In this document: positions 7,774-11,152 of the stretch, in pieces
Position numbering within the stretch: the first letter of the stretch is position 1
How the letters are laid out: the number at the start of each line of letters is the position of its first letter
NCBI GenBank assembly: GCA_009703845.1
Contig: WLFI01000008.1
Location: 1 to 11,739 of the forward strand
DNA length: 11,739 bases
Origin: Actinomycetota bacterium
GTDB taxonomy: Bacteria; Actinomycetota; Actinomycetes; Actinomycetales; Microbacteriaceae
Direction: 5' to 3'
The notes under the pieces: model-generated
What the model was told of the DNA's origin: nothing
Database searches by the model: none
What the model saw: only the letters and a program-made list of their open reading frames with translations
Program-made: the position numbers and the translations under genes

Positions 7774-9159
7774 ATGCCCACCGGTAGGCCAAAGATGCAT
7801 GCCACCTCGCCCGAAACCCTTGCCCTCCGTGAGGCTGTTCTTAGCTACGCGAGGGCCCGCATGGAGTATGACCCAGCCCCGCTAGACGCGCCAGACACTC
7901 TCGAAAACCTGCAACGCCTCGCTCCCGACACCGTAAACGAAAAAGGGCTCGGCGGCCAAGCCGCTCTAAGTCTGTTTGCCGAAGTTTTGGCTCCCGCATG
8001 CCTCAGTACCGACCATCCGGGTTATTTGAGCTTCATTCCCACCGCGCCAACCGAAGCAGCAACACTCTTTGACTTGGTCGTTTCGGCATCTTCGATTTAC
8101 GGCGGATCTTGGATGGAGGGTGCTGGCGCTGTTTATGCCGAAAACGAGGTGCTGGCGTGGCTAGCCCGCGAGGTTGGGTTTGATGAGAGCGCCGGTGGTG
8201 TCTTCGTTCAAGGTGGAACTTTAGGAAACCTTTCTGCCCTCGTTGCGGCGAGACACACAGCCGAAGCAAAGCTTGCCGCGGACGGCAAATCTAGACCAGC
8301 CAGATGGAAGTTCGTGTGCTCGAAAGAGGCTCACTCGTCACTTAAAGCAGCTGCCAGAGTCATGGACGTCGACGTTGTCTTGGCCGAGGTTGACGGTGAA
8401 GGAAGACTCAGAGGTCAAGCGGTGCTGGACGCGCTGGAATCGGCTGGAGATGGCGTATTTGCGATTGTCTCAACCGCCGGCACAACCAACTTTGGCATCG
8501 TCGACAGGTTACGAGAAGTCGGAGAAATCGCCAACGCGGCAGGCATTTGGTATCACGTCGATGGCGCTTACGGTTTGGCTGGAATTCTCAGCGACAAAAC
8601 CAAATATCTTTTCGATGGAACCGAACTAGCCGACTCTTTCATCGTCGACCCGCACAAGTGGCTGTTCGCTCCTTTCGACGCCTGTGCGCTGGTGTACCGA
8701 AATCCAGCACTCGCTAAAGCCGCTCACACGCAACACGGCGAGTACCTAGACACCCTGACCGACTCAGGCGATTGGAACCCGAGCGATTACGCCTATAACC
8801 TGACCCGTCGCGTTCGCGGGCTACCGCTCTGGTTTTCGCTAGCCACGCACGGCGTAGGGGCTTATCGTGAGGCGGTCAGCGACAACATCCAAGTTGCTTC
8901 TGAAATCGCCGAGGTGATTCGAAACAACCCCAAGCTAAAGCTAGTTCGAGAACAGGAACTCAGTGTTGTCGTATTTGAGCGTGAAGGTTGGTCGCTCAAA
9001 GATTATGAACGTTGGAGTGACTATCTATTGCACGAGGGCATTGGCTTAGTCGTGCCTAGTTCGCATTTGGGCAAGCCAAATACAAGGTTCGCCATCGTGA
9101 ATCCCCAGACCACCACCGAACTACTAATCAAGATTCTCGACACCATGGAGCAAATGTGA
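7774..9159 (+). CDS. Group II PLP-dependent amino acid decarboxylase, candidate arginine decarboxylase
   Basis: A 461-aa fold-type I enzyme of the aromatic-amino-acid/glutamate decarboxylase group. Counting from ATG 7774: His187 in KEAHSSLKAA stacks on PLP, Asp263 in YHVDGAYG binds the pyridine nitrogen, Lys295 in VDPHKWLF is the Schiff-base lysine, and FVQGGTLGN (144-152) holds the phosphate. The region GDWNPSDYAYNLTRR replaces the mobile catalytic loop area. ATG 7774 is chosen over 7753 because AAGGGAG precedes it and 7753 lacks any SD. Its stop overlaps the amidase start by four bases (GTGA), and agmatine deiminase follows, so L-arginine is the substrate the context suggests. The family also includes decarboxylases for Tyr/Trp, His, diaminobutyrate and Lys (DesA), so a basic substrate is plausible but unproven. 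Confidence 0.88.
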   Translation: MPTGRPKMHATSPETLALREAVLSYARARMEYDPAPLDAPDTLENLQRLAPDTVNEKGLGGQAALSLFAEVLAPACLSTDHPGYLSFIPTAPTEAATLFDLVVSASSIYGGSWMEGAGAVYAENEVLAWLAREVGFDESAGGVFVQGGTLGNLSALVAARHTAEAKLAADGKSRPARWKFVCSKEAHSSLKAAARVMDVDVVLAEVDGEGRLRGQAVLDALESAGDGVFAIVSTAGTTNFGIVDRLREVGEIANAAGIWYHVDGAYGLAGILSDKTKYLFDGTELADSFIVDPHKWLFAPFDACALVYRNPALAKAAHTQHGEYLDTLTDSGDWNPSDYAYNLTRRVRGLPLWFSLATHGVGAYREAVSDNIQVASEIAEVIRNNPKLKLVREQELSVVVFEREGWSLKDYERWSDYLLHEGIGLVVPSSHLGKPNTRFAIVNPQTTTELLIKILDTMEQM

Positions 9160-10154
9160 AGCTGACCCTCGCGCCTGCCGCCGCCCCGCTTTCAAGAGTC
9201 AAAGACGCCGATCGTTCACCGGTTCGAGTTGCCCTCGTGCAAACCAGATGGCACGCGTCGCCAGAAGAGCACCTTGAAAAATTGAACGAAGGCATCGCTA
9301 TGGCAGCCGAAGCGGGGGCGTCGATTGTGTTTTTGCAGGAGTTGACGCTGAGTCGCTACCCGGCCGACACTCGACCAACGGGCATTCCGAATGAGCTCGC
9401 CGAGCCCCTAGCCGATGGTCCCACCTACCGCTTCGCTGCCGCTGCTGCGTCAAAGCACGGCGTCATCGTTCACGCCTCGCTCTATGAGCACCAGCCGTTC
9501 GCCGACGGCCGCGGACTCAACACGGCGATCATGGTGCACCCCAATGGAACCTTGCTTGCTCGCACCCCGAAACTGCACATTCCAGTAACTGCTGGCTATT
9601 ACGAAGACGAGTACTTTCAACCAGGCCCGGCGCTCGGTGAGCCGTACCCGGTTTATACAACCGACCTTTCGGGCACCGTGGCTCGAATCGGGCTTCCAAC
9701 CTGCTGGGATGAATGGTTTCCAGAGGTTGCGCGCAACTATTCGTTGAGAGGCGCAGAGATACTGGCCTACCCCACCGCCATCGGTTCTGAGCCAGACCAC
9801 CCAGATTTTGACACCGAGCCACTTTGGCGTTCGGTTATCGTCGGCAACGGAATCGCAAATGGCACATTCATGGTGGTGCCAAACCGTTGGGGTAATGAAG
9901 GTGCACTGAATTTTTATGGCTCGAGCTTCATAAGCGACCCATACGGGCGAATTTTGGCGCGGGCTGCTCGCGAGGGTGACGAAGTTTTGGTGGCAGATCT
10001 CGACCTTGACCAGCGACGCGACTGGCTTGATCTCTTTCCGTTCTTGGCAACCCGTCGCCCCGACACCTACTCAAAATTAATCGAACCGGTGTCGAACCCG
10101 CGTTCTGATAACGGTGATGGCGTCGAGGGCGGCATTGCTGGAGTTGGCAAATGA
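9156..10154 (+). CDS. aguB: Nitrilase-superfamily amidase, probable N-carbamoylputrescine amidase
   Basis: A 332-aa C-N hydrolase with the complete catalytic set: Glu62 in FLQELTLSRYP, Lys139 in RTPKLHIP, Cys183 in LPTCWDEWFPE, with Glu150/Glu152 in GYYEDEYF. CWDEWFPEVAR, RGAEILAYPTAIGSEP (198-213) and VVPNRWG are close to AguB, which hydrolyses N-carbamoylputrescine to putrescine, CO2 and ammonia. Departures from AguB as I recall it are KLHIP instead of KSHIP and QELTLSRYP instead of QELFxxPYF, so substrate is not certain. It has an N-terminal extension of about 20 residues before the first strand VRVALVQ. GTG (9156) overlaps the decarboxylase stop, and its own TGA overlaps the ATG of aguA: translational coupling in both directions. 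Confidence 0.82.
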   Translation: MKLTLAPAAAPLSRVKDADRSPVRVALVQTRWHASPEEHLEKLNEGIAMAAEAGASIVFLQELTLSRYPADTRPTGIPNELAEPLADGPTYRFAAAAASKHGVIVHASLYEHQPFADGRGLNTAIMVHPNGTLLARTPKLHIPVTAGYYEDEYFQPGPALGEPYPVYTTDLSGTVARIGLPTCWDEWFPEVARNYSLRGAEILAYPTAIGSEPDHPDFDTEPLWRSVIVGNGIANGTFMVVPNRWGNEGALNFYGSSFISDPYGRILARAAREGDEVLVADLDLDQRRDWLDLFPFLATRRPDTYSKLIEPVSNPRSDNGDGVEGGIAGVGK

Positions 10155-11152
10155 CCTGGGTTATGCCAGCCGAATGGCAACCTCACGAGCGCACCTGGAT
10201 GGCGTGGATGGAAGAGGACTACTCGAAAGATAGCAACCCTGAGTCTGCCGACGAAATGCACCGCGCTTGGGCGAAGGTAGCAAACACTATCGTCAACTTC
10301 GAGCCAGTCTCGATGCTGGTCAGCCTTGAGCATGAGGCCGAGGCGCGGGCTTACCTCGACTCACGGGTTGAGATTGTGATCGCCAAAATCGATGACGGGT
10401 GGATGCGCGACAGCGGCCCGACGTTCGTCAAAAGTGGTGCATCCGTGGCCGCCATCGACTGGGTGTTCAATGGCTGGGGCAACCAAGGCGGTTGGGCGAA
10501 TTGGGAGCACGATGACGCGGTTGCCTCATTCATAGCCGACAAAGCTGGGGTGCCGAGCTTTCGATCGACGCTCGTCAACGAAGGCGGAGGAATACACGTA
10601 AACGGCGCCGGCGCATTGTTGGTCACCGAAACCGTTCAACTCGGGTCAGAGCGCAACCCAGGCTGGTCGCGCGCCGAAGTTGAAGAAGAGTTGAACTCGA
10701 GGCTTGGCACAAACCAGGTGATTTGGATTCGCCGCGGGCTCACTAGAGACTACGAAGACTTTGGCACGAAGGGGCACGTCGACATCGTCGCCTGTTTTGC
10801 CGATGAGAACACAATTCTTTTTCACGATCAGCAAGACGAAAACCACCCAGACTTCGCGGTCAGCCATGAGGTGAAGAGAACGCTCGAAGAAACCACAAAC
10901 TTTAAATTGGTCGGCGTTCCTGCCCCGAAAACTCTTCGTGACGAACACGGTTTCGTTGACTACAGCTACATCAATCACTACATCTGCAACGGAGCGGTCA
11001 TTCTGTGTGCGTTCGATGACGATAACGATCAGGTCGCTAAGGGCATTCTCGAAAGTGTTTACCCGGGTCGCGAAATTGTCTTAGTGGATGCTCGACCGCT
11101 GTTCGCGCGAGGTGGCGGCATTCACTGCATCACACAGCAGCAACCCGCCTGA
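10151..11152 (+). CDS. aguA: Agmatine deiminase
   Basis: A 333-aa guanidino-group-modifying enzyme (PAD_porph family) that turns agmatine into N-carbamoylputrescine and ammonia. Motifs in order: [15 protein letters not shown] (5-19), [13 protein letters not shown] with Asp87, [21 protein letters not shown] (143-154), [14 protein letters not shown] with His209 and Asp211, and [14 protein letters not shown] with the nucleophile Cys326. All catalytic residues are present, but the length is at the short end compared with E. coli and plant enzymes (about 365-380). The start ATG lies in an ATGA overlap with aguB. Together with aguB this gives agmatine -> putrescine; a source of agmatine is needed, which points to the first gene of the operon. 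Confidence 0.92.

Follow-up and report, generated by a model that had tools for sequence, protein, structure and literature searches.

At least five convergent forms of arginine decarboxylase (ADC) were distinguished in a 2025 paper, and no group II enzyme is among the examples in its introduction (PMC12283126). The known ADCs, namely SpeA of the alanine racemase (AR) fold, AdiA and the Bacillus SpeA of the OKR_DC family, PvlArgDC, the SpeD-derived enzymes and the Aspergillus pyruvoyl enzyme, belong to protein families other than that of the protein described here, with which they share the proposed reaction and the position in the pathway. This protein, denoted DEC, is a group II decarboxylase dependent on pyridoxal phosphate (PLP), encoded in a three-gene operon within an 11,739-nucleotide stretch of contig WLFI01000008.1 (hereafter, the window) from an actinobacterium of the family Microbacteriaceae. 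We consider it highly probable that this operon turns L-arginine into putrescine, with DEC as an arginine decarboxylase of the group II fold.

The two downstream steps proposed here are those of the AguA-AguB and AguA-AguY pathways, in this case joined to a decarboxylase. AguY is known from Microbacteriaceae, the family of the window organism: in Microterricola gilva, a member of this family, the amidase encoded beside AguA is reported, in the accessible text of the source, to hydrolyze N-carbamoylputrescine (PMC12283126). Among group II decarboxylases, the R. gnavus tryptophan decarboxylase, the lysine decarboxylase DfoJ and the 2,4-diaminobutyrate (DABA) decarboxylase are 22–26% identical to DEC in a structural alignment, and DEC differs from all three in its genomic context, which is that of agmatine metabolism. 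The group II fold has acquired a basic substrate before: a lysine decarboxylase structurally similar to glutamate and dopa decarboxylases has been described (PMC8503589). Titles and abstracts of the open-licence literature yielded no group II ADC among the matches listed.

Organization of the operon

According to the list of open reading frames (ORFs) and the Pfam matches, three forward-strand genes encode DEC, an AguB-like amidase and AguA, in this order. The features are the following.

7774..9159, + strand: DEC, group II PLP-dependent decarboxylase, proposed arginine decarboxylase, 461 aa
9156..10154, + strand: AguB-like nitrilase-superfamily amidase, proposed N-carbamoylputrescine amidohydrolase, 332 aa (PF00795, TIGR03381, 5h8i)
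10151..11152, + strand: agmatine deiminase AguA, 333 aa (PF04371, TIGR03380, 1vkp)
9156..9159, + strand: GTGA, 4-bp stop/start overlap between DEC and AguB-like genes (sequence)
10151..10154, + strand: ATGA, 4-bp stop/start overlap between AguB-like and AguA genes (sequence)
11181..11739, + strand: 5' part of argG (argininosuccinate synthase), open-ended ORF running off the window (NF003779)

An earlier note on this DNA had recognized the decarboxylase, the AguB-like amidase and the agmatine deiminase, with four-base overlaps at both junctions; the Pfam assignments (PF00282, PF00795 and PF04371) agree with this reading, and both overlaps are present. Not among its genes was argG, which lies directly downstream on the same strand, with a GTG start 28 bp past the AguA stop, and belongs to arginine synthesis. 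The partial argG product scores 358 bits against NF003779 over profile positions 2–186 of 448 (the cut-off for the entire protein is 657) and is 91% identical to ArgG of genome G013. A search of 155 other loci placed argG near DEC in 7, a count given without a chance expectation; the loci are in six genomes (G010, G013, G055, G178 and, from metagenome-assembled genomes (MAGs), L151 and L161).

Three start codons are candidates for DEC, at 7753 (the ORF list, 468 aa), 7774 and 7795 (a database prediction from the same contig, 454 aa); we prefer 7774, the position given in the earlier note, as the probable start because it is preceded at a distance of 4 nt by an AAGGGAG box.

The genome that contains the window (G000) is 945 kb in size and 62% complete. 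The gene order is not a contig artefact because it is kept in G010, a 1.43-Mb genome of the same genus assembled as a single contig, and in seven further genomes (G117, G172, G046, G095, G013, G157 and G027); it also recurs in the MAG loci L158 and L177. In G117 and G046, a DUF3237 gene is inserted after DEC. Conservation of the three-gene order in relatives, to which the earlier note had tied its hypothesis, holds for near relatives but not for relatives with large genomes.

DEC forms a separate clade of group II decarboxylases

DEC matches PF00282 (Pyridoxal_deC) with 173 bits against a gathering score of 27. With residues counted from the 7753 start, Lys302 (PHK), Asp270 (HVDGAYG), His194 and Tyr331 are invariant in an alignment of 42 family members, among them the PHK lysine and the HVDGAYG motif from which membership in group II had originally been proposed. 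We take these residues to be, respectively, the Schiff-base lysine, the aspartate of HVDxAYG, the PLP-stacking histidine and the catalytic-loop tyrosine. Loss of the loop tyrosine turns group II decarboxylases into aldehyde synthases.

Six NCBIfam models, for aromatic amino acid, tyrosine, DABA, aspartate, histidine and glutamate decarboxylases, matched DEC, all below cut-off, so that none of these equivalog names applies; the best is DABA decarboxylase, with 147 bits against a cut-off of 900. Neither the AR-fold SpeA models PF02784 and TIGR01273 nor, in the Pfam scan, the OKR_DC model PF01276 matched DEC at 1e-3. Homologs at 71–74% identity are labeled Microbacteriaceae, Rhodoluna or Actinobacteria, and close homologs are currently named aspartate aminotransferase family protein, L-2,4-diaminobutyrate decarboxylase or glutamate/tyrosine decarboxylase-like enzyme. 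In a quick tree with six references, DEC and its relatives form a clade of their own; the reference branches are long, and we read no more from this tree than that the clade is coherent and that gene contexts are scattered over it.

Two residues after the invariant Trp120, position 122 is acidic in all 139 aligned family rows outside the subclade L060/L082/L083 (Glu in 133, Asp in 6). This subclade has Ala or Ser at 122 and Glu at 121, and the segment 120–122 in L082 and L083 accordingly reads Trp-Glu-Ser/Ala instead of Trp-x-Glu. DfoJ and RhbB differ from DEC in having Trp-Asp-Gln, in which the acid follows the tryptophan immediately; in the aromatic enzymes of R. gnavus and Pseudomonas, this segment has no acid. 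By analogy, Glu122 might hold the guanidinium group of arginine, a guess for which the alignment is suggestive only.

On the proposed route, DEC, with its loop residue Tyr331 kept, would form the external aldimine of arginine on Lys302, lose CO2 and release agmatine; AguA would then deiminate agmatine to N-carbamoylputrescine, which the AguB-like amidase would hydrolyze to putrescine, CO2 and ammonia. Such an enzyme class would have been reached from a group II ancestor, separately from SpeA of the AR fold, from AdiA and the Bacillus SpeA of the OKR_DC family, and from the pyruvoyl enzymes.

The DEC clade is linked to three routes from agmatine to putrescine

AguA of the window matches PF04371 (PAD_porph) with 349 bits, above the Pfam cut-off, and its best solved structure is the agmatine iminohydrolase of Arabidopsis (1vkp), with which the GHVD (GHxD) and HCITQQQP motifs align; presumably, these contain the catalytic His, Asp and Cys. 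The AguB-like protein matches PF00795 (CN_hydrolase), and its best solved structure is the plant N-carbamoylputrescine amidohydrolase 5h8i; QEL, PKLHIP and CWDEWFPE, which we assume to carry the Glu-Lys-Cys triad, are aligned.

We searched 199 genomes of the family with the DEC protein and PF04371, counting as DEC-positive the 46 genomes with a match of at least 55% identity. AguA is encoded in 46 of 46 DEC-positive genomes vs 54 of the 153 others (Fisher exact test, 2e-17, kinship ignored); its distance from DEC is at most 2.5 kb in 25 of the 46 and 7.6–12 kb in 3. Eight of the 153 possess divergent DEC orthologs (45–51% identity), and AguA is present in four of these eight. In G092 and G154, which belong to the genus of the window organism, DEC, AguA and the AguB-like amidase are jointly absent.

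The DEC clade adjoins three non-homologous routes, namely the AguA-AguB pair, AguA plus an AguY-like amidase, and agmatinase; the counted contexts rest on tblastn, and some calls of neighboring genes are doubtful. The first route is not confined to the family of the window organism: L061, from another actinobacterial family, has the order DEC-AguA-AguB, with a 47% identical DEC and an AguB that passes the NCBIfam cut-off (425.9 vs 410.25). Window-type AguB (at least 64% identity) was found in 11 of the 38 DEC-positive genomes tested; weaker nitrilase matches (36–40% identity), present in 11 DEC-positive genomes, were not counted as AguB.

The second route is seen in L043, where DEC, AguA and a PF01425 amidase follow one another with 4-bp overlaps, and in L079, where the same three genes are adjacent; L075 carries the AguA-amidase pair in divergent orientation to DEC, and the distance of the pair from DEC, as measured from AguA, is 7.6 kb in L041 and 12 kb in L042. 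We call this amidase AguY-like; like AguY of M. gilva, it is encoded next to AguA. At 1e-80, it is encoded in 34 of the 46 DEC-positive genomes, with 52–100% identity to the L043 amidase (only 52–53% in 5 of the 34). Altogether, AguB or the AguY-like amidase is present in 45 of 46; the remaining genome, G184, gave no AguY-like match and is not one of the 38 in the AguB test. Window-type AguB and the AguY-like amidase occur together in none of the 38 genomes tested for both.

The third route is represented by L058, where the agmatinase gene precedes DEC by 4 bp in the same orientation, and by L063 and the MAG loci L108, L111, L113, L119 and L176, where it is a convergent neighbor; in G438, a convergent neighbor is an arginase-family match. 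The two agmatinases scanned, those of L058 and L063, pass TIGR01230 (191.6 and 196.2 vs 174.3). A clade of 30 rows with loci titled Nanopelagicaceae, Planktophila or acI includes 5 with an adjacent agmatinase, and 17 of 20 others searched hold an agmatinase 62–70% identical to that of L063 (5 were outside the search, and the count has no DEC-less control set).

Counter-evidence and relatives without an agmatine link

Several observations weigh against the assignment of DEC as an arginine decarboxylase in this pathway. The window AguA scores 267 bits against TIGR03380, below the cut-off of 382, and the best NCBIfam match of the AguB-like protein, the AguB model TIGR03381, scores 202 bits against a cut-off of 410; because both miss the equivalog cut-offs, the names AguA and AguB-like rest on likeness and context. 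In 18 of the 46 DEC-positive genomes, AguA is farther away or on another contig. Moreover, AguA occurs without DEC in the 54 genomes mentioned above, and the AguY-like amidases track AguA rather than DEC because they are equally common in DEC-less genomes with AguA (16 of 20, vs 1 of 8 genomes with neither), so the presence of AguA-AguY is in itself no reason to expect DEC.

Relatives of DEC with other neighbors also weigh against it. In eight rows from MAGs titled Halieaceae or Luminiphilus, DEC has other neighbors and no agmatine gene nearby; of the seven searched for agmatinase, four gave no match at 1e-20 and three only matches of 34–40% identity, and over all 50 genomes of the agmatinase search (in which AguA was not sought) 13 gave no match. 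In seven rows (L048, L050, L054, L055, L059, L107 and L143), DEC lies beside a class-III aminotransferase; the only one scanned is similar to glutamate-1-semialdehyde aminomutase and to GntE and passes none of the best 25 of 67 models. In 17 rows, the neighbor is an Amidohydro_1 protein of the 8-oxoguanine deaminase type. We considered whether this protein acts on guanidines and rejected the idea; the single representative scanned scores above the cut-off of the 8-oxoguanine deaminase model (607.9 vs 532 bits), and for this reason we treat the protein as an unrelated neighbor. Finally, the window genome holds an OKR_DC homolog, discussed below.

Because the Halieaceae, the aminotransferase-linked and the L060/L082/L083 groups show no agmatine link, we restrict the claim of arginine decarboxylation to members linked to AguA or agmatinase; the others need not share this function. 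The divergent copies in L082 and L083 lie in a cytochrome P450 cluster (the P450 was scanned in L082) and perhaps act on another basic amino acid. A copy on pSCL4 of Streptomyces clavuligerus (52% identity) has no agmatine genes within 8 kb, as judged by tblastn. Phage matches are limited to three records, one 47% match in an unannotated record and two DABA decarboxylases. The occurrence of the DEC family in Halieaceae and Luminiphilus, which are gammaproteobacteria (L112, L120, L128, L132, L134, L135, L140 and L156), suggests transfer between phyla.

Other sources of agmatine and other substrates of DEC

An improbable alternative is that the ADC is the OKR_DC homolog, a 484-aa protein of the ancestral aspartate aminotransferase fold similar to the Bacillus SpeA, and that the substrate of DEC is a different one, such as ornithine, lysine or some aromatic or non-protein amino acid. 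This homolog is present in the window genome (G000:C15; L084:801-2255, - strand) next to genes that by eye resemble rplK and rplA, lysine and arginine decarboxylases are the solved structures closest to it, and in G013 it follows AguA in the same orientation at a distance of about 1 kb. However, 24 of the 38 DEC-positive genomes tested, all with AguA, have no OKR_DC protein above cut-off; the 14 that do have one include that of the window. OKR_DC is no more common in genomes of the family with AguA (21 of 58) than in those without (3 of 8), and G092 and G154 keep it, yet lack DEC, AguA, AguB and any arginase-family protein. Actinobacterial homologs of this form are said, in the portion of the source available, to have no known function (PMC8503589). 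With respect to its location, the homolog sits between the agu genes and argG in G013, and it is kept in the genus of the window organism even where DEC, AguA and AguB are missing (also L092 and L088).

Other ADC classes give little indication of an alternative. PvlArgDC was found in none of 51 genomes and proteins of the S-adenosylmethionine decarboxylase type (AdoMetDC) in none of 77, and the single AR-fold protein is LysA, above cut-off, in all 10 genomes checked. A single AR-fold protein is also what 18 of the 24 DEC-positive genomes without OKR_DC encode (LysA was verified in 9 of the 18); because these 18 lack OKR_DC and have only one AR-fold protein, DEC is the only candidate in them among the ADC classes searched, which did not include the Aspergillus type. 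The earlier note had named a separate classical ADC, together with activity of DEC only on other amino acids, as evidence against its proposal: PvlArgDC and AdoMetDC-type enzymes were not found in the genomes searched and the single AR-fold protein was LysA in the 10 checked, whereas the OKR_DC homolog is present in the window genome and counts against DEC without being decisive. The window genome also encodes a second group II decarboxylase (L085:6677-8071, G000:C1; 464 aa), whose best NCBIfam match, to the tyrosine decarboxylase MfnA, is below cut-off and whose gene is followed by that of an aldo/keto reductase with a 4-bp overlap. Some DEC-positive genomes similarly hold a second, approximately 30% identical, group II protein.

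It is also unlikely that AguA and the AguB-like amidase degrade imported agmatine while DEC, an unrelated amine-forming enzyme, is co-transcribed with them by chance. AguA of the 54 DEC-less genomes is perhaps catabolic, and the accessible part of one report suggests a catabolic role in AguA-AguY genomes without a recognized ADC (PMC12283126), but DEC adjoins three non-homologous downstream routes, every DEC-positive genome of the family has AguA, and G092 and G154 lack DEC, AguA and AguB jointly. A scheme in which AguA first acts on arginine and DEC then decarboxylates citrulline directly to N-carbamoylputrescine would need no genes beyond these three, which lie next to argG, a citrulline user. 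It is nevertheless very improbable given that it leaves unexplained the pairing of DEC with agmatinase, which acts on a guanidino group, and that the solved structure most similar to AguA is agmatine iminohydrolase.

The proposal that the group II decarboxylase is the source of agmatine, first made in the earlier note, is supported by the presence of AguA in every DEC-positive genome of the family, by the link of the clade to three non-homologous routes, by the failure to find several other ADC classes in many genomes and by the adjacent argG.

Other features of the window

Between aguA and argG (11153–11181), an inverted repeat, CTCTAGG (11156–11162) and CCTAGAG (11171–11177), was spotted by eye; judged from the sequence, it could form a small regulatory hairpin, its 3' arm overlapping a possible ribosome-binding site of argG. 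Upstream of the operon, on the opposite strand, a 500-aa protein is encoded (6160–7662, - strand) whose C-terminal part is a phosphodiester glycosidase (NAGPA) domain; no NCBIfam model matched it. A predicted 223-aa protein (296–967, - strand) has no Pfam match.

Implications

An unrecognized ADC class derived from group II decarboxylases is probably the source of agmatine in many Actinomycetota, including Microbacteriaceae, Nanopelagicales-type organisms and others, where it would be coupled interchangeably to AguA-AguB, AguA-AguY or agmatinase. If so, many database records of DEC homologs would need a new name, and DEC would provide the initial reaction that seems to be missing where AguA is encoded but an ADC is believed absent. 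Convergent evolution has a model case in arginine decarboxylation, and DEC would extend it by one more origin, within the family responsible for dopamine, histamine and γ-aminobutyric acid (GABA). For actinobacteria with small genomes, this would mean a complete route from arginine to putrescine.

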